A DNA stretch of 55,923 nt, taken from positions 5,778 through 61,700 of the forward strand of contig JAGPDT010000014.1 in the NCBI GenBank assembly GCA_018057455.1, in the 5' to 3' direction. A model generated the notes under the pieces. The model had not been told where the DNA came from, made no database searches, and saw only the letters and a list, made by a program, of their open reading frames with translations. The position numbers and the translations under genes were made by a program. Within the stretch, counting starts at the first letter, position 1; every line of letters starts with the position of its first letter. The stretch comes from Flavobacteriales bacterium (GTDB lineage: Bacteria; Bacteroidota; Bacteroidia; Flavobacteriales_F; PHOS-HE28). Of this stretch, positions 40,687-55,097 are shown in pieces.

Positions 40687-43308
40687 TCACCGCCTCACAA
40701 ACCCTTCACCCGGCAGGGTGGATCCATCGGGCAGCGTGATGTGCAAGGTGTACCAGCCGCCGGCCAATTGGTGGGCTTCCAACGCTGCGGAGCAGGTGCC
40801 ACGGACTGCTTCGGTGCTGGCTTCGTGGATGGTGCGTCCCAATGCGTCGCGTATGAGAAGTCTGGCCTGTCCCTCCACATGCGAGCGGAAGGATACGTTC
40901 AGCAGGTCGGTGACGGGGTTGGGGAACAGCACGGGCCGATCCGTGCCGTTCTTCAACGTGGCAGTAACGGTTTGCGTGCGCATGAGGGTGCCGTCGAGGT
41001 CCACTTGCTCCAAGCGGTAGTAATTGGTGCCCCGGAAGGGATGTTCGTCCACGAAGAGGTAATCGGTGCGGAACAGGGCTTCTCCGGAGGCATTCACGGT
41101 GCCGATGGTGGTGAAGGACACGTTGTCCAAGCTGCGCTGCACATTGAAGTGGCTGCTGTTGTGTTCGGTGGCCGTGGCCCAGGCCACGTTGATCACGGGG
41201 TCATGCGCTTCGGCCTCAAACGAGAGCAGTTCCACCGGGAGGGTGGTGCAATCCAGGCTGGCCCCGCCGAGTACCCAGGTAAGGGTGAAGGCTTGCCCAG
41301 AAGTGGAGTAGTTGTCGATATAGAGCACGTAGACTTCACCCGCCAGTGCATCGATGTCCATAACCCACCCGGTTCCTCCGGCCCCTTCAGTGGTTTGGGT
41401 GGCGGTGGCATTGAGTCCGGTGGTATAAGGGCCTGGTGCGTCATAGCTGCAGCGTAGCGGCGGACCGCCTGGGCACTGTGCATTGGCGTAGGGACCCCAC
41501 ACGGCAAAGTCATAGTCATCGGTGCCATTGGCCGGGTCGATGCTGAAGGCAATGGTGCCGTTGGTCTGTGGGGAGAAGTAGTACCAGGTGCCTTGGCGTT
41601 CTCCGGCGGAAAGGCAGCCTTGGTTGGACGCGTCCAGATCGTCCATCACCCCGGTGTTGGCGCTGGAGGTGGAGATGTTCTGGGAGTTGCACAAGGTGAT
41701 GCCCCCGGCACAGTCCTGCGGGGGTGCGGGCGGCGGGCCGCAATCCACGGTGTGGCTGAAGGTGATGCCCGATGCTGGTGGCGTGGCGGAGGTGAAATAC
41801 GGCGATTCGCCCATTTTGGCCACGGTGTAGGAGTTCTGTCCCTGGTTGGGGCCGGAATTGTCGTAGTTGAACTCGATCACATCCCCGATGTTCACACCGA
41901 TGAACACTACGTTGGATGAGCCAGTCACCGTGTAATAGTTCCACGGTCCGCCATTGATCCTCACGCCCACATCGGAAGATCCCCAACCGTTGCCGTTGCT
42001 GTCGTTCAAGCGCAGGAGGTACACGCAATCACCGGAAGGTGGGGTGATGCACCCCACATTGGCGGCCCAGCCGGTGTTGGTGATGGAGCCGTCGGAATCG
42101 AAGTCGGCGGTGAGGCAGCCGCCGGGATTGGAGGCTACGGTAACCGGGGGGAGGGAGGTGCCGCTGTATGAGCCCAACAGCGGGGCAGATGTGTTGGTGC
42201 CATCATAGATCATCAATTCATCGATGAAGCCCTCGGTGGCGAACGCGGTGAAGTTGAGCACCACCATGTCGCCCGGCGTGCTTGGGCAAATGGTGACGGT
42301 GCTGCTGATGTCGTTGCCATAGTCACCCGTTCCTCCGGGATCATAGAACACATCGCCGCAACCGGGTGCAGGGGGTGGGATGTACGAGCGGGCGCAGATG
42401 TCGAAGGTGCCGGGGTTGTCATTCCCGAATTCCCAGAACCGGATGTACACCGTGCTGCCGGGGGTGAGGCCGGTGGCGTTGATCATGGGCATCCATCCAT
42501 TGGGGCTGTCGTCATCATCACATTCCACCAAAGTGAATGGGCCGCTGCAGTTGGGGGCCGAGTAGATTGCCATGCCCCCATCGGTGACCACGCCGGTATT
42601 GGTTTCAATGATCATATTGCCGTTGGCGGGCACCACGGCGCTGAACCAGACATCCCCCCCAGTGTAGGAGGCACAGCCCGGAGCCGGCACCCCTGATGTG
42701 CCGGTGGCATTGGTGGTGGTGGCGGTGGTATACGAGCAGGAGGCGTTCACGGCGAGCACGGAGGCCCCGCAGGGATCGTCGTTGGCAGGCCCCGCGGGCG
42801 CATCGTACACGCAGAGTGTCCCGTTGTTCATCACCCCGTTACCCCCCCAGCGCTGTACGCGAATGATGTAGTTGGAGCCCAGTACGGTGGCGATCGTCAC
42901 GGATTCCACGGCGCCGTCACAGCAGTTGTCCGAACAGGCCTCCACCACCGGAGCGGCACACGTGCCACTGAGCACATGGAGCACGGCATTGCCACCTCCC
43001 GGCGGTGTATAGGTCACGATCACAGGGTTTCCGGTACCGGCGAACCAGGCGAAGGCATCGTCATTGGCACTGCCCCCGCAACCGGTAGGGGACATGTTGC
43101 TGACAAAGCTCCCCGGCTTGTCAAAGTCCGTGGGGTTGCACGTGGCCCCTACGGGCCATTGGGCCCCACCGGAGAAGCCGCAATTGTCGGTGGAAGCCTG
43201 CCCGAGAACGAGCATGCCACAGCACATCCCGCCCAAGAAAGTGGCGGCACGGACCGGATATGCGGGCAATGCAATACAAAATCTCCAGGACACAATGGGG
43301 GTAGGCAT
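40687..43308 (-). CDS. Large T9SS-exported multidomain protein
   Basis: An 873-residue exported protein. The signal peptide contains LGGMCCGMLVLGQA. Two Cys-rich beta domains of the PPC/'adhesin-like' kind follow (LHVLSGTCAAPVVEACSDNCC, GGDVWFSAVVPANGNMIIET), then a CUB-like domain (CGDVFYDPGGTGDYGNDISSTVTICP). A further beta domain (GERQGTWYYFSPQTNGTIAFSI) precedes the linker LPVELLSFEAEAHDPVINVAWATATEHNSSHFNVQRS. The T9SS sorting domain closes it (VLFPNPVTDLLNVSF). It is probably a surface adhesin or matrix protein. A run of nine G/C pairs lies 31 bases upstream of the start. It is a paralog of the interrupted gene at 44.6-46.1 kb. Confidence 0.8.
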   Translation of the reverse strand: MPTPIVSWRFCIALPAYPVRAATFLGGMCCGMLVLGQASTDNCGFSGGAQWPVGATCNPTDFDKPGSFVSNMSPTGCGGSANDDAFAWFAGTGNPVIVTYTPPGGGNAVLHVLSGTCAAPVVEACSDNCCDGAVESVTIATVLGSNYIIRVQRWGGNGVMNNGTLCVYDAPAGPANDDPCGASVLAVNASCSYTTATTTNATGTSGVPAPGCASYTGGDVWFSAVVPANGNMIIETNTGVVTDGGMAIYSAPNCSGPFTLVECDDDDSPNGWMPMINATGLTPGSTVYIRFWEFGNDNPGTFDICARSYIPPPAPGCGDVFYDPGGTGDYGNDISSTVTICPSTPGDMVVLNFTAFATEGFIDELMIYDGTNTSAPLLGSYSGTSLPPVTVASNPGGCLTADFDSDGSITNTGWAANVGCITPPSGDCVYLLRLNDSNGNGWGSSDVGVRINGGPWNYYTVTGSSNVVFIGVNIGDVIEFNYDNSGPNQGQNSYTVAKMGESPYFTSATPPASGITFSHTVDCGPPPAPPQDCAGGITLCNSQNISTSSANTGVMDDLDASNQGCLSAGERQGTWYYFSPQTNGTIAFSIDPANGTDDYDFAVWGPYANAQCPGGPPLRCSYDAPGPYTTGLNATATQTTEGAGGTGWVMDIDALAGEVYVLYIDNYSTSGQAFTLTWVLGGASLDCTTLPVELLSFEAEAHDPVINVAWATATEHNSSHFNVQRSLDNVSFTTIGTVNASGEALFRTDYLFVDEHPFRGTNYYRLEQVDLDGTLMRTQTVTATLKNGTDRPVLFPNPVTDLLNVSFRSHVEGQARLLIRDALGRTIHEASTEAVRGTCSAALEAHQLAGGWYTLHITLPDGSTLPGEGFVRR

Positions 43309-43339
43309 TGCGGCGAAGGGTTTGCGACAAGATGTAAGA

Positions 43340-43348
43340 GGGGGGGGG
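43340..43348. repeat. Nine-base G homopolymer upstream of the T9SS gene
   Basis: A run of nine G (nine C on the coding strand) lies 31 bases before the start of the leftward T9SS gene, in the divergent promoter region shared with the CPBP gene. Such tracts can change length by slippage. Confidence 0.7.
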
Positions 43349-43449
43349 ACATGAATACTGACGCAAGGCGGATGAAAGGTTGCCGCCAGGGGCCGAACTT
43401 TTCCCGATGTTAATGCGTATCGGCCGGGTTCGGCCCATTCCTTTGCACC

Positions 43450-44361
43450 ATGCGGCAATTCGTGGCACGGTTTCCGGTCCTCTCGTTCATGGCCCTCACC
43501 CTGGGCTACCAAGTGGCCGTGATGGGGTTTATAGCATGGCGCGCCGGATCCGGCGCCCACCTGGAGGAGGACGAAGGGGTGCACATGGTTTTCCGCTTGC
43601 GGCTGTTCGGTCCGTTGATCTTTGCCATGTTGATCACCTGGTACGTCGAAGGCCGTACGGGCCTGGCCACTTTGTTCAATGGGTTCAAGAACTGGCGGGT
43701 GCCCATGCGCTGGTATGCGTTGGCCTTCTCGTGGAAGTTCCTCTTCACTTGGTGCGGCATCGCGGCGTTGGCCCTGTTGGGCTGGCGGCATTGGCCGGGC
43801 TTTTTCATTGATGGCCTCTGGGGCGGGGAATGGGCCACTTTAAAGAACCTGTTGCGGGCCTTTCCGTTCATTGTGGCCATTGCCTTCGTGGAGGAGACCA
43901 GCTGGATGAAGTTCAGCGCCACCCGCCTGCAGGACCGCTACCCGGCGGCCGTGGCCTGCCTGTTCACGGGCATTGGCTGGGCCCTGTGGTACATGCCCAT
44001 GCTGCTGGTGGGCGAGGGCGTGCCCGATGGTTACCCTGTGCCGGTGTTCATGTTGAGCATGGTGGCGTTGGCCTTCCTGCTGGGCTGGGCCTACAACATG
44101 ACCCACAGCGGGGTGGTGCTGCTGATCATGCAGATCGTGAGCAACTGTGCCTTCTTCCTGCTGCCGGTGCTGCCCGGCCTGCATGAAATGGATGCCGCCT
44201 ACGTGAACTCGTTCGTGGCGGTGAACGTGCTCTCGGCCGTCACCTTGGTGTTGGTTTACGGCTGGCGCGAACTGGGCCGGGGTAAAAGGGCCACGTGGAG
44301 TGCCGCCTTGGCCGAAGCACAACGTATGGAGCAGGCCGCCGATCTGCGCAACGCCGCCTGA
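43450..44361 (+). CDS. CPBP-family membrane protein with degenerate active site
   Basis: A 303-residue protein with about eight membrane segments and the fold signature of CPBP (CAAX-protease/bacteriocin-processing, Abi) proteins. The usual motif 1, EExxxR, reads EETSWM. The motif 2 His in ALWHxP is Tyr (ALWYMP). The motif 3 His (LLxHxxxN) is Gln (IMQIVSN). The two Glu remain but both His ligands are lost, so proteolysis is unlikely. A TTCCTTTG box ends 4 bases before the ATG. It lies between two paralogous T9SS genes. Confidence 0.78.
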   Translation: MRQFVARFPVLSFMALTLGYQVAVMGFIAWRAGSGAHLEEDEGVHMVFRLRLFGPLIFAMLITWYVEGRTGLATLFNGFKNWRVPMRWYALAFSWKFLFTWCGIAALALLGWRHWPGFFIDGLWGGEWATLKNLLRAFPFIVAIAFVEETSWMKFSATRLQDRYPAAVACLFTGIGWALWYMPMLLVGEGVPDGYPVPVFMLSMVALAFLLGWAYNMTHSGVVLLIMQIVSNCAFFLLPVLPGLHEMDAAYVNSFVAVNVLSAVTLVLVYGWRELGRGKRATWSAALAEAQRMEQAADLRNAA

Positions 44362-44568: not shown

Positions 44569-46083
44569 TCAGATCTTCAGGAAGGACCCCACCGGGGAAG
44601 TCTCACCATCGGCCCCTACCAAGCGGACGAAATACTGGCCGGGTGCCAGGGCATGGGTGTCGGCTTCCAACAGACGGGATCGACCGGCGGGTTGGCGCAC
44701 CTGGAGTTGCTTGGTGGTGCGGTCCATGGAGCCGGCCACCCATAGCGTGGTACCTGCGGGCACATCGCGAGGCAAGCGGAGGAACAGCACATCAGCCACC
44801 GGGTTGGGGTAGATCAACAGACTAGCAGGGGCATTGGCCCAGCAAGCCACCACATTGGAGACCTGGGCTGTTCCGTCAAGGTCTGTTTGAAGCAGCCTCT
44901 AGTAGTTCAGGCCTGTCGGTGGGGTCTTGTCCAGGAAGGAGTAGGTTCGGTAGCCTTGGGAATTTCCAGCGGCGGGCATCCGGATCAATGGCATGAAGCT
45001 CAAGGCATCGCTGCTGCGTTCCACGGTAAAATGGGCGCTGTTCGTTTCGCTTGCCGTGGTCCAGTCCAATTGGATCCCGCCATGGGCTCCCACGGCATTG
45101 AAGGAGATGAGTTCCACCGGCAAAGTTGACGTGTTGGGCGAAGCGCACACCTGGAAGGCGCCATCGCCGCCGTAGAAGGCCCAAAAGCGGATATAAATGG
45201 TGTCTCCGGGCGTCAGTCCGGTCTGGTCGATCGAGGGCATATGGTCCGTTGCGGACTGGTCATCATTGCAGGCGATCAGGGCCATGGACTGGGCACAGCC
45301 CTCCGCGGTGTACAAGGCCATTCCGCTGTCGCCGGGGCCCATGGCATTGGCATGGGTGTCCACGCGGAGATGGCCGCTGGCGGGTACCACGGCTGCGAAC
45401 CAGATGTCGGGTTCACCGGTGTAGAAGCAGCCGGGGTCGGGCAGGACCAAGGAGGCGGTGGCGCTGGAATTCGACGCGGCGACCATGTTGGTACAGGCGG
45501 AATCGGCGCTCAGGAGCATGGCGGTGCAGGGCTCATCATTGGCCGGTGGAGGCGGTGTGGCGAAGATGCAGATCTGTGCATCCGGCATGGGGTTGTCGCT
45601 GCCGGTGGTTTGCACCCTGATGAGGTATGTTTGGCCGCTCACGGTGGGGATCACCAGGTCCTCGCTTCCCGGTCCCGGGCTGTTGGCACAGGCCACTTGC
45701 GTGAGTGCGCCGCAGGAGCCGGTGAACACGTGGAGTGCCGGGTCCTCGCCGTTATTGGGCGCGAAATTCAGCGTGGTACTGGGGCCTGTGGCTTCGAACC
45801 AGCCGAACACATCGGCGTTTGTGCTTGCATTGCAAGTGCCCGGGGTGAACGATGCGTTGGCGCCGGCGGGCTTGTGAAAAGGGCGGGGGATGCAGGCGGG
45901 GTCAACCGTGTAGGCGTTCCCGGCCAAGAAGCCGCAATCGTCGCTGGCCGTGTATTGGGCTAGCAGCGGTGCGGTGGCCATGAAGATCCAGGCGATCGAC
46001 CAGGTCAAGCGTTTCAGTTCCGGTGGGGTTTGATGGATGAATACGAGCAAAAGGCCACCCTTCCGGGGGCGGGCCAGGGCCAT
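44569..46083 (-). pseudogene. T9SS-exported protein interrupted by an amber codon
   Basis: An exported protein of about 504 codons. The signal peptide contains SIAWIFMATAPLLAQ. Cys-rich domains (LHVFTGSCGALTQVACANS, GEPDIWFAAVVPASGHLRVDT) and the linker LPVELISFNAVGAHGGIQLDW follow. The frame is then broken by TAG at 44899-44901. The codons on both sides are in the same frame and read GLNY-stop-RLLQTDLDGT. The paralog at 40.7-43.3 kb reads GTNYYRLEQVDLDGT, so the stop replaces a conserved Tyr. Beyond it lies an intact T9SS sorting domain (LIYPNPVADVLFL ... LKI). The truncated product would lack the export signal. Confidence 0.85.
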
Positions 46084-46134: not shown

Positions 46135-47364
46135 TCATGGGTTCTTCAGCGCTTGGCGGGGCTGTGCCATGGCCTCTTGCGGGTATTGGACCAGGGCCTC
46201 GCGCAGGCATTCCACGGCCAGCTTCAGCTTGTCTTGCTCCAGTACGTAGGCCAGGCGCACCTGTTTCTTGCCCGGCCCGGGCCCGGCGTAGAAGCCCGCA
46301 GCAGGGGCCATCATCACCGTGTGGCCTTGATGCGCGAATTTTTCCAGCAGCCACTGGCAGAACACGTCGGCATCATCGATGGGCAGCTCGGCCACGCAAT
46401 AGAAGGCCCCCTTGGGCTTGGGGCACACCACACCGGGGATGGTATTGAGGCCGTCCACGAGGATGTTCCGGCGCTGGCGGTATTCGTTGTTCACCTGCTC
46501 GAAGTACGACTTGGGCGCCAGCAGCGCGGCCTCCGAGGCGATCTGCCCGTAGGTGGGCGGGCTCAGCCGGGCCTGGGCGAACTTCAGGGCCGTGGCCAGC
46601 AGTTCCTTGTTGCGTGTGATGAACGCGCCGATGCGGGCGCCGCACATGCTGTACCGCTTGCTCACGCTGTCCACCAGCACCACGTTCTGCTCAATGCCGT
46701 CGAGTTCCATGGCACTGATGTGCTGGGCGCCGTCGTAGCAGAATTCGCGGTACACCTCATCGCTGAAGAGGAAGAGGTCGTGCTTCTTCACGATGTCGCG
46801 CAGGGTCTCCAGCTCATGTCGGCCATAGAGCGCGCCCGTGGGGTTGCCCGGGTTGCAGATGAGAATGCCTTTGGTGCGCGGGGTGATGAGCTTTTCGAAT
46901 TCGGCGGCGGGCGGCAGGGCGAAGCCGTCGTGGATGGTGCTGCGCAGGGGTACCACGGTGATGCCGGCCTGGATGGCGAAGGCGTTGTAGTTGGCATAGA
47001 ACGGCTCGGGGATGATGAGTTCATCGCCGGGGTTGAAGCAGGCCATCATGCCGAAGAGCAGGGCCTCGGAACCACCGGTGGTGATGATGATGTCTTCGTG
47101 GGAGACCGCGATGTGGTGCGCTTGGTAGTAGCTGGCCAATCCTTTGCGATAGCTCTCAAAGCCCGCGCTGTGGCTGTATTCCACCACGGTGAGGCGGTTT
47201 TCCCGGATGGCCTTCAGCGCTACCTCCGGGGTGTGGATGTCCGGCTGGCCGATGTTGAGGTGGAGCACCTCCACACCGCGCTTGCGGGCGGCCTCGGCAA
47301 AAGGGACCAGTTTGCGGATGGGGGAGGAGGGCATCGCTTGCCCTTTTTGGGAAATGGATGGCAT
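46135..47364 (-). CDS. Pyridoxal-phosphate aminotransferase (class I/II)
   Basis: A 409-residue fold-type I aminotransferase resembling aspartate aminotransferases. Seen are LNIGQPDIHTP near the N-terminus, ITTGGSEALLFGMMA (cofactor phosphate region), ICNPGNPTGALY, FSDEVYREF (Asp that pairs with the pyridine N), the Schiff-base Lys in VDSVSKRYSMCGARIG, and the C-terminal substrate-carboxylate Arg in KQVRLAYV. The amino donor is not known. The ATG at 47364 is preferred to an upstream TTG, which sits inside a near-consensus promoter box (GACCTTTG). Confidence 0.9.
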   Translation of the reverse strand: MPSISQKGQAMPSSPIRKLVPFAEAARKRGVEVLHLNIGQPDIHTPEVALKAIRENRLTVVEYSHSAGFESYRKGLASYYQAHHIAVSHEDIIITTGGSEALLFGMMACFNPGDELIIPEPFYANYNAFAIQAGITVVPLRSTIHDGFALPPAAEFEKLITPRTKGILICNPGNPTGALYGRHELETLRDIVKKHDLFLFSDEVYREFCYDGAQHISAMELDGIEQNVVLVDSVSKRYSMCGARIGAFITRNKELLATALKFAQARLSPPTYGQIASEAALLAPKSYFEQVNNEYRQRRNILVDGLNTIPGVVCPKPKGAFYCVAELPIDDADVFCQWLLEKFAHQGHTVMMAPAAGFYAGPGPGKKQVRLAYVLEQDKLKLAVECLREALVQYPQEAMAQPRQALKNP

Positions 47365-47664
47365 GGCTGTGGAATAGGTGGGCAAAGGTCGCGGTTTGTT
47401 GTGGATGAACGACGGGGCATCCCCAGGGGTGGTCCTTGGCCAGGGGCTTACATCGGCCTCCCCGGTTGGATCCTTGGCCTGAAGGGTGGTGCCGGAGGGC
47501 GGGCGATGGGGTCCATGCCGATGGGGCCACGGCCACGGACCGGGGCACCGAAGTGATCGGGAGGCCCATCCGCCATGGCGGAATGCCGGGGGGCTTCGGG
47601 GTTGAAGCAGACAGGCCGCCCCGGTGGAAGGGGGCGGCCTGTCTGTGTTCGGCTGTTCAAGTGG
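47365..47664. other. Non-coding region between aminotransferase and Spy-like gene
   Basis: Three hundred bases with no credible gene; open frames have no coding character. Contains the terminator hairpin listed separately at 47609-47644. Confidence 0.6.
47609..47644 (-). terminator. Hairpin downstream of the Spy-like gene
   Basis: A perfect 14-bp stem AGACAGGCCGCCCC / GGGGCGGCCTGTCT around an 8-base loop, 21 bases after the Spy-like stop. The following tract is only moderately T-rich. Confidence 0.65.
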
Positions 47665-51258: not shown

Positions 51259-53073
51259 CTAAGGCTCTTGCGGAGGTTGAAAGTAGCTGACCAGATAACC
51301 GTGCCCGCCCTGTAGCACTCGTATCGTCGTTCCATTGTGCTCCGCGGATGTACTGTTATCGATCGAAACCGTTGCTATCTCACCCAGGCCCAGTTCGCCC
51401 AGGTCCACCGTCCCGGCTGCGCTGTAACTAGTTGTGGTGAAATGAAGGGTTCGCGTTTCCTTGTTGATCGAGACCTTCGTCGGATCCCAGTGCATGGCTC
51501 CATTCACCAGGCCAAGAACGATCGGCTGGCCATCGTGGTACCAGTCAATTGCCACTCCTGGTCCCGGACGGATCGAGGCATATAGCATGTACGCCGGAGC
51601 GAAGAGCATTTCCCGGCACCATCCGAATGAGTAATAGTCTTTCTCTGGTGAGAACGGTGGAGTTGTCTCGACCATGTCGATATAGCCCGGTGGGGCGATG
51701 AGGGTGTCGCGGATCACATGCCGTTCCAACAAGGTGTCGTAGAGTTGTCTGGCAAGCAGCCCGTAAACGGGATCATTCGCAGCATGGGAAAGCTGCGCGA
51801 GGCCATAGGGAAATTGGAGCGCAGCGTATGCCAATTGCGAATCATTGTGTTCATTGCTGTACTCGCCACCTTCGCTCAGGTTGTGAGGCACCATGAAATG
51901 CTTCAGCCCATAGCCGCTCAGGAGCACATGGTCCGCGTGCGCCTTGCAAAGGTCCAGCACGCGCTCACTGAGATCGGGATCACCGATCATCTCCCTGTTC
52001 GAAAGCAATGTGCCAATGAACAACCCATACATCGTCTCCAATTGCGGATCAGACTCCGAACCGTCCACATGGTTGAGGTACCGGAACGCTCCACCGGCGA
52101 TGTTCTCATCCCAAATACCATTCAGCAGCGCTGACGTGTACTCCCGCGCAATCTGCAGCAGATCCTTGTCTGCGCTGATATTGTACACACAATGCAGAGC
52201 GCGCAAATAGGCGCCGCCCATGTCATCGAATCGGAACATGCTGCCTGGATAGAGGCGGGTCCCTACCGAATCCTTTTCCAAGTCCCAGACTTCGCTCACC
52301 AGGCCGGTCTGCTTGTTCCGTTTCGCCCAAATGCTTTTCAAAATCCGTACGGCAGCTTCCACATATGATGGGTCTCCGGTGGCTTCGCTAGCCAGCGCTA
52401 GTGCCTCCGCGACGAAGCAGGAGGAAGAGCCAAGTTGGGCTTCCAAACCGGTCTCCGAAGAGCGATGTGGAGCTCCATCAGGGCTTTCTATGTTCTGATA
52501 GGCGACTCCCGTGCGCGCATCCAGGCAATGGTTCAGAACTCCCTGCGCCAATCGGTGTACCAATGGGATGCAGGTGCTGTCATGCGTGCTTACCATGCTC
52601 ACAAGCGACAGGACATTGGCTTGCGTGCCGACGAAGACGACTGCACTGTCGGATGAGACCAGTCCATTCGATACGGTCAGTTCCGGCAGGATTCCGCTCG
52701 GTGGAAGCCAGTGGCCAAGTTCATGAGCCGTGCGTTGCGCGATGAAAAGGAAAGCACTGTCGCCCGTGGCCTCGAACGTGGAGATACAGCTCAATCCGGT
52801 GAGGAAGCCGGGGCGAAACGCTGTGTTCCGCGCAAGGTCGAAACCATCGGGCAGAAGCTGGAGATCTGCGCTCTGGGTCCTTAGTCGTCTGATGCCTGCT
52901 AAAAGCTCCCTGCATACCTGGTCCGTCTCGGAGTAGAAGGCAGTCTCGGAAGGGATCGGGAAGATCACCTGCTCGGTCGAATGATGACGGCACCCGGAGG
53001 TAAGGAACAAAATGAACAGTGAAAATGCGGTCAAGTAGGAGAGCTTTCCGCAGGGCATACCAGTCTTTGCCAT
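51259..53073 (-). CDS. Exported lipoprotein with alpha/alpha-toroid-like architecture
   Basis: A 604-residue protein with lipobox LTSGCRH (Cys at about residue 28). Residues 50-490 are rich in paired helices with aromatic and acidic residues between them (SMFRFDDMGGAYLRALHCVYNI, DYYSFGWCREMLFAPAYMLYA). The layout resembles (alpha/alpha)-barrel sugar enzymes such as uronate epimerases, unsaturated uronyl hydrolases or lyases, but I cannot assign a family. The C-terminal 100 residues look like a beta-sandwich. It shares an xPYGLAQL motif with the gene upstream. The codon composition is more AT-rich than that of carB. It probably acts on polysaccharide at the cell surface. Confidence 0.65.
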   Translation of the reverse strand: MAKTGMPCGKLSYLTAFSLFILFLTSGCRHHSTEQVIFPIPSETAFYSETDQVCRELLAGIRRLRTQSADLQLLPDGFDLARNTAFRPGFLTGLSCISTFEATGDSAFLFIAQRTAHELGHWLPPSGILPELTVSNGLVSSDSAVVFVGTQANVLSLVSMVSTHDSTCIPLVHRLAQGVLNHCLDARTGVAYQNIESPDGAPHRSSETGLEAQLGSSSCFVAEALALASEATGDPSYVEAAVRILKSIWAKRNKQTGLVSEVWDLEKDSVGTRLYPGSMFRFDDMGGAYLRALHCVYNISADKDLLQIAREYTSALLNGIWDENIAGGAFRYLNHVDGSESDPQLETMYGLFIGTLLSNREMIGDPDLSERVLDLCKAHADHVLLSGYGLKHFMVPHNLSEGGEYSNEHNDSQLAYAALQFPYGLAQLSHAANDPVYGLLARQLYDTLLERHVIRDTLIAPPGYIDMVETTPPFSPEKDYYSFGWCREMLFAPAYMLYASIRPGPGVAIDWYHDGQPIVLGLVNGAMHWDPTKVSINKETRTLHFTTTSYSAAGTVDLGELGLGEIATVSIDNSTSAEHNGTTIRVLQGGHGYLVSYFQPPQEP

Positions 53074-53078
53074 CGTGG

Positions 53079-55097
53079 TTACTTCACCAGCAACGGTGAA
53101 GCGGCCAGGACCTTGCCGCCCTCCTGCTGCACCACCGTGTACGATCCCGGTGCCAGCGCGAGGCCATATAGGGGGAGGATGAACTCGCTCTGATCACGTT
53201 CAATCACCGGGCTACGGTACAGGCATCGGCCCGAAACATCGTAGAGGTTGACAACCCCATCGCCGACCATGGCACACAGCGTGATCCTTACTATGGAAGA
53301 AGCATCGGTCGGATTCGGAGCGATTGCCCATTCTGCCCTGTTCACCACTTGCCGCTCTGGATCCGGTACGGGGTGCACCACATCGCTTCGTTCTGCATTG
53401 ATCGACGCATCCAAACCTGCGCGCACCTTGTATCCCATCCCGCATCCTGCTGGATCGATATAGGCATGCACTGTGCTTCCATATGCCGCATGGAATCCAG
53501 GTTCCCAATGAATTGCACTTCCAGCCTTCATATTGCACTTCACTCCGGATCCGATCTCGAAAACCGGATCGAATGTCTCGGGATCAGCAAAAGATCGACC
53601 GGGTCCGTTGCCCGGTGCGATAACGAGCACGTCTTTCGCCGCGAAGTCCTGATCGTAGCTCAGCACTCGATTTCGTAATTCCAAACTGAAGCACTCTCGT
53701 TCCCACTGTTCGGAAACCAATTGGGCCAAGCCGTAGGGTATGCTCGTCGCGTTGGTGTATTGGCCAAGGGCCGACACTCCTTGGCCGTAAAGGTCATGGA
53801 AGTAGAGCTTCATGATCAGGTCATACAACGTCTGCTGGCTGGCACCTGATGTGTCGTCCCACTTCGACAACCATGTTGCCGAGTAGACGGTCCCTCTTGT
53901 CTGGTCAAGTCCTGAGAAAACCGTGTTGTAATCAATGTCGTCATCGCCATCTATGCCCGCGTGAAAATGCGGGTTCTCGTAGTCGACCCCATCAATCGTG
54001 AAGGGAGTCGCACCAGCATAAGCTCCTTCTGTGTATGCATTGTGCAAACGCACCAGGTCGGTCTCCGAAAAGACCTGCGTGTGGTAAGGAGCCCAGATGG
54101 TGTTGTCCTTCACAGTCATCGGCAGTTCCAGGGATTGCATAGCGTGAGAGAGATCTTCATAATCGTCATCGCTATCCGGGCATGGATACTTCCAGCCGAT
54201 ATCCACCCACTGGTATCTGTTGGGAGGGGCTAGTTCAAGCACCGGTCTAAGCTCGGGAAAACAGACCAACGTCCTGAACCAATCACTGGCAATGTCGTCT
54301 GCGGCTTGCAGGTAGTACTCGTTGGGGTCGTTCTGCCCCATGTAGTACATCGCGGCTGCAATCGCCGACTGAAGGTTGATCACCATTGCATCATCGTCGC
54401 TGGGATGGGCTGAAAAGCCTTTCTCTGCCCCTTTCCAGTATCCGCCCCAGTAGTACCGATCTATGGTCTCATCAACCCGCTGCCCCAACCAGTCCGCCAG
54501 TTCTCCGAAGGTGAACTGAGCGCCAAGCCATTGATTATGGGCCAATGGAGTAGAGAAAGACTGTAGGTCAGGATACTGACTATTGATCAGGTGGACGAAG
54601 TGAGCCATAGGCCATATGATCTGCCCATCTATGTAAAGAATTGTCGTTGGTGTCCCGCTGTCATTGATGAGTGACCATGAATACGGTGAGCCATCATGAA
54701 GTGCAAGGTAGGACGCAGGAAGGTTCAACTGATCGAATCTCAATTGGAATTCACAATCGAGAACGTTCACGAATTTGATGAGATATGCCTTGTCCTTCGT
54801 CGTTTCGCACATTATCAGATATGACTCCAGGAGTCGCGAACAACCGTCACCGAATGTCTCCCCTATCTCATCGAGATAGTCATCGAGTGGTTGGTCGGCA
54901 TTCACTACGCACGGATGCTCGACTACATCAAGAACATGATGGATGAAAACATCGTACTGCTCCTTGATCTGAAAGTCCTTTCTCTCCTGCCCGAAGCCAT
55001 GATTGATCAGGCCCACCGCCAAAGCTATCGTGACCAATGCCGTACGTATGTTCAGCCCATGACGGATAGAACAAAAAGTGGGTAATATGTCCTGCAT
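53079..55097 (-). CDS. T9SS-exported alpha/alpha-toroid-like protein
   Basis: A 672-residue exported protein. The signal peptide contains TALVTIALAVGLINHGFGQ. A helical catalytic-like domain (about 40-470) has IIWPMAHFVHLI, AHPSDDDAMVINLQSAIAAAMYYMG and DDYEDLSHAMQSLEL. A stack domain follows (FEIGSGVKCNMKAGSAIHWEPGF, the repeated '3-coathanger' pattern of Bacteroidota). The T9SS sorting domain closes it (AIAPNPTDASSIVRI, LYDVSGRCLY, LAPGSYTVVQ). The family is not recognised; an uronic-acid polymer enzyme is a guess from fold. It lies 5 bases from the lipoprotein gene and the two form an operon. Base composition is low in G+C (23 of 60 at 54721-54780). Confidence 0.68.
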   Translation of the reverse strand: MQDILPTFCSIRHGLNIRTALVTIALAVGLINHGFGQERKDFQIKEQYDVFIHHVLDVVEHPCVVNADQPLDDYLDEIGETFGDGCSRLLESYLIMCETTKDKAYLIKFVNVLDCEFQLRFDQLNLPASYLALHDGSPYSWSLINDSGTPTTILYIDGQIIWPMAHFVHLINSQYPDLQSFSTPLAHNQWLGAQFTFGELADWLGQRVDETIDRYYWGGYWKGAEKGFSAHPSDDDAMVINLQSAIAAAMYYMGQNDPNEYYLQAADDIASDWFRTLVCFPELRPVLELAPPNRYQWVDIGWKYPCPDSDDDYEDLSHAMQSLELPMTVKDNTIWAPYHTQVFSETDLVRLHNAYTEGAYAGATPFTIDGVDYENPHFHAGIDGDDDIDYNTVFSGLDQTRGTVYSATWLSKWDDTSGASQQTLYDLIMKLYFHDLYGQGVSALGQYTNATSIPYGLAQLVSEQWERECFSLELRNRVLSYDQDFAAKDVLVIAPGNGPGRSFADPETFDPVFEIGSGVKCNMKAGSAIHWEPGFHAAYGSTVHAYIDPAGCGMGYKVRAGLDASINAERSDVVHPVPDPERQVVNRAEWAIAPNPTDASSIVRITLCAMVGDGVVNLYDVSGRCLYRSPVIERDQSEFILPLYGLALAPGSYTVVQQEGGKVLAASPLLVK

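Follow-up and report, generated by a model that had tools for sequence, protein, structure and literature searches.

Within a 55,923-nt stretch (here, the window) of contig JAGPDT010000014.1, from the genome of an uncultured Flavobacteriales bacterium (GCA_018057455.1), a gene on the minus strand is interrupted by a single in-frame TAG codon. The gene (44569 to 46083 in window positions, which are used throughout) comprises 504 codons if the stop is read through and encodes a protein resembling cargo of the type IX secretion system (T9SS); the TAG (44899 to 44901) falls at codon 395, the position of a conserved Tyr. We consider it likely that a recent single-base nonsense mutation inactivated this accessory, and probably redundant, cargo gene in the sequenced population. 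The locus is best read as a young pseudogene or a strain polymorphism. In-frame stops are common across bacterial genes, and most do not persist for long (PMC7918605); nothing about this one sets it apart from the ordinary.

Translating the minus strand from 46083 down to 44569 revealed exactly one internal stop in 504 residues. The sequence around it (LNY-stop-RLLQTDLDG) is open on both sides, and the frame terminates with TGA at 44569 to 44571. The stop is genuinely present in the assembled sequence, and the first-pass annotation was accurate in describing a single TAG with the frame intact before and after it. At the 5′ end the frame opens with an ATG at 46083; however, because a hydrophobic, signal-peptide-like stretch begins only at about residue 26, the start codon is uncertain and may instead be a TTG before TWSIAWIFMATAPLLAQ. 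Start codons also occur internally after the stop, but none is preceded by an evident ribosome site or backed by homology as a separate gene. The locus should be annotated as one interrupted T9SS cargo gene and not as two hypothetical proteins.

The ancestral codon was examined by aligning the last 190 residues with homologous stretches found in this genome and in others of the genus. Across the 47 homologous stretches covering the site, the aligned codon was TAC in 39, TAT in 7, and GAG in 1, the last in a poorly aligned row. An alignment of 35 rows, headed by the interrupted protein with TAG entered as Tyr, showed both the Tyr at the stop column and the Arg that follows it to be invariant; the AGG directly after the TAG is the codon of this conserved Arg. 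The neighboring paralogue at 40687 to 43791 reads NYYRL at the matching place, as the first-pass annotation had pointed out. With Tyr in 46 of the 47 stretches, a single substitution (TAC or TAT to TAG) explains the stop, in line with the change proposed there. A degenerate DNA pattern for NY-(TAG/TAA)-RL...D had a single match across 45 congeneric genomes, at 44899 to 44901 (the reversed pattern gave three matches); by this search, the stop recurs at the homologous site nowhere else in the genus.

The sequence behind the stop still resembles coding sequence. The 109 codons after the TAG scored +0.235 bits/codon in frame, within the range of the other long open reading frames (ORFs) of the window, versus −0.35 and −0.38 in the other two frames. 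The chance of an open run of 109 codons at the local composition is about 0.03, and the case is strengthened by homology to T9SS tails. A T9SS C-terminal sorting domain is predicted at 44572 to 44826 (minus strand) from a match to PF18962 (Por_Secre_tail; 18.4 bits, under the Pfam cut-off of 27), from a profile match to the solved tail of mirolase (chain 8qb1, E = 3.8e-4), and from a structural match to PorU; the score against TIGR04183 was likewise under its cut-off (14.6 bits versus 23). The motifs YPNP, GQYFVRL, and FLKI are retained and DAxG has diverged. All of these matches lie behind the TAG, supporting the earlier claim that the stop removes the sorting domain from a surface protein. 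In the frame translated up to the stop, no sorting domain of the kind that marks T9SS type A cargo was found.

Upstream of the stop, a galactose-binding-domain-like segment was detected at 45247 to 45543 (minus strand; PF23759, GBD_T9SS_assoc, E = 1.9e-5, 25.3 bits, cut-off 27); this family and PF18962 gave the best Pfam matches of the interrupted gene. Residues 315 to 504 were modeled with AlphaFold2 from 35 aligned sequences, with the TAG as Tyr, at a mean predicted local distance difference test score of 89. Comparison of the model by VIA-align indicated that its residues 8 to 103 resemble fibronectin-III domains (Z = 10.1, root mean square deviation [rmsd] 2.3 over 87 residues) and its residues 106 to 190 the C-terminal domain of PorU (6za2; Z = 8.0, rmsd 3.0 over 82 residues). 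The predicted fibronectin-III-like domain occupies 44833 to 45120 (minus strand), and the stop, at model residue 81, lies inside its sixth strand (77 to 87). The product would therefore end halfway through that strand and be missing the final strand and the entire sorting domain.

Translation from the unchanged start would yield a protein of about 394 residues comprising the signal peptide, the binding-type domains, and a cut fibronectin-III-like domain. Such a product would be expected to reach the periplasm through Sec and would not be exportable by T9SS. Because the fibronectin-III-like domain is damaged, misfolding and degradation are likely, and the truncated product would probably be unstable. 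The first-pass annotation had proposed a periplasmic protein that is not exported by T9SS. Loss of the export signal agrees with that proposal, but the picture of a simple periplasmic form is too simple, given that the preceding domain is cut as well.

The genome (3.31 Mb in 130 contigs) encodes a T9SS, with SprA matching at 2,555 bits (cut-off 200). The sorting-domain family matched 123 times in the genome, and a stop lay inside the domain in none of the 123. Inspection of 14 further sorting-domain matches, located in short frames of the genome, gave no clear second case of a similar interruption. Three of the frames considered as further interrupted genes were rejected: L248 and L250 resemble chance frames, and L249 comes after a long open frame that terminates in TAG and has the appearance of a complete gene.

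The interrupted gene sits between a conserved class I/II aminotransferase gene (46135 to 47385, minus strand; PF00155, E = 1e-54) and, as the next gene downstream, the intact longer paralogue (40687 to 43791, minus strand), with which it shares 39% identity over residues 35 to 314 and about 37% in the C-terminal part. In close congeners, the aminotransferase, which serves as a synteny anchor (85 to 91% identity in the closest of them), is followed by relatives of the longer gene, and a counterpart of the interrupted gene was not seen beside it. In a tree of the binding-domain region, the interrupted gene fell outside the group formed by the longer genes of the same genome and three close species (the group uniting those longer genes has 96/91 support), which marks it as an accessory copy that is old and diverged. 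The 44 congeners yielded no ortholog, and no match there spanned the whole protein; peptide patterns identified none in the genome_contigs or viral_contigs collections; and no plasmid carried one at >80% of the length. The absence of an ortholog from the 44 congeners, together with an intact paralogue next door, indicates that loss of the gene can be tolerated. Across the genus (L144 to L155), a T9SS cargo gene with a variable number of binding-type domains adjoins the aminotransferase, often followed by a shorter second copy; the locus is a hot spot of cargo-gene duplication. In the longer paralogue, an ORF of 1,034 amino acids, the first ~190 residues look like a spurious 5′ extension, and a signal-peptide-like stretch begins at about residue 189.

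Four explanations had been offered in the first-pass annotation (recent inactivation, an on/off variant, a suppressed stop, and an assembly error), and recent inactivation fits best: there is only one lesion in 504 codons, Tyr is nearly universal among the homologs, and the downstream coding signal is kept. Two points weigh on the other side. The TAG base is known from the assembled consensus of one genome alone. Among 15 conserved columns of the tail, 3 depart from consensus, clustered at DAxG (most other rows depart at 0 to 1), and these departures are the sole hint of relaxed constraint; relative to the upstream part, the tail profile score is unremarkable (rank 10 of 35), so that relaxation is at most hinted. 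The most serious competitor, though an unlikely one, is an error of assembly or consensus, in which case the cells would have Tyr at this codon and an uninterrupted gene. The assembly consists of 130 contigs, the congeneric records with titles are metagenome-assembled genomes of uncultured Flavobacteriales, and the change is a lone substitution in an otherwise perfect frame. It also creates CTAG, a word strongly avoided in the window (12 occurrences versus ~200 expected by base composition); however, two further CTAG words, at 44822 and 45960, lie in the interrupted gene, which with the one at 44899 holds 3 of the 12, and the word is therefore not foreign to this gene. Also speaking against an error are the good estimates of completeness (99.41) and contamination (0.15). 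In accessory genes, real nonsense mutations are generally commoner than substitution errors in an assembled consensus, and we regard the base as probably real.

The remaining alternatives accept the base and differ in its consequence. An on/off polymorphism with both alleles maintained in the population is improbable: a scan of the region for repeats detected no slippery or tandem tract, inverted repeat, or invertible segment at the stop, nor is there structured RNA, and so the sequence lends no support to a variant of this kind; in place of frequent switching, only ordinary point mutation and reversion would be available. Readthrough or suppression of the TAG, with some full-length protein made, would accord with the intact, coding-like downstream frame and the conserved Arg codon that follows, but we judge it very improbable. 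The suppressor tRNA that the first-pass annotation suggested looking for, one with a CTA anticodon reading UAG, was absent from the 37 tRNAs found by Rfam and assigned by ARAGORN, a set that is itself incomplete because the assembly lacks standard tRNAs such as Ile-GAT and Asp-GTC. Release factor RF1 is intact (480.5 bits, cut-off 423), TAG terminates ordinary genes (5 of the 38 long ORFs of the window, some of them possibly spurious), no structured RNA was predicted downstream of the stop (z = 0.71), and none of the homologs examined has a stop at the matching position. TAG readthrough in Escherichia coli reporters averaged <1% (PMC11126739). A suppressed stop is thus disfavored, and a more elaborate version, in which low-level UAG readthrough at the conserved Tyr splits the output into periplasmic and secreted forms, is hardly credible. 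Equally hard to credit is a truncated protein kept as a useful periplasmic form: the signal-peptide-like stretch and the N-terminal binding-like domains do remain, but the stop falls inside a strand of the fibronectin-III-like domain and not at a domain border, and none of the relatives examined has a truncated version. Recent inactivation by a point mutation thus stays the preferred reading. It illustrates that a single mutation can suffice for the loss of an accessory T9SS cargo paralogue and has little significance beyond annotation.

Elsewhere in the window, an ORF of 604 amino acids (51259 to 53073, minus strand) matched glycosyl hydrolase family 47 (PF01532, E = 4.9e-6, over the cut-off). 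The GC content at its third codon positions (GC3) is 0.65, below that of most ORFs of the window. The neighboring ORF (53079 to 55097) has no Pfam match and a GC3 of 0.60; the two are possibly an acquired pair.

Compared with known systems, the interrupted gene shares with T9SS type A cargo (TIGR04183/PF18962) a signal-peptide-like stretch, binding-type and fibronectin-III-like domains, a C-terminal beta-sandwich tail, and intact paralogues in the genome. In contrast to such cargo, its tail is located behind a stop, scores under both family cut-offs, and has a changed DAxG motif. The tail is required for T9SS export (PMC10202324). In laboratory mutants of Porphyromonas gingivalis, as cited in PMC4804311, gingipains truncated in the C-terminal domain stay in the periplasm. 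The case described here is alike in that losing C-terminal residues would block export and leave the cargo periplasmic; it differs from those mutants in that the cut, if real, arose naturally, is placed further upstream, and harms the preceding domain as well. A further likeness is to nonsense-interrupted bacterial genes (PMC7918605), which similarly have one in-frame stop, keep frame and similarity on both sides, and are interrupted in a single genome of the comparison. Nothing distinctive separates the present gene from them; the loss here of a C-terminal export signal predicts an effect on the location of the protein.
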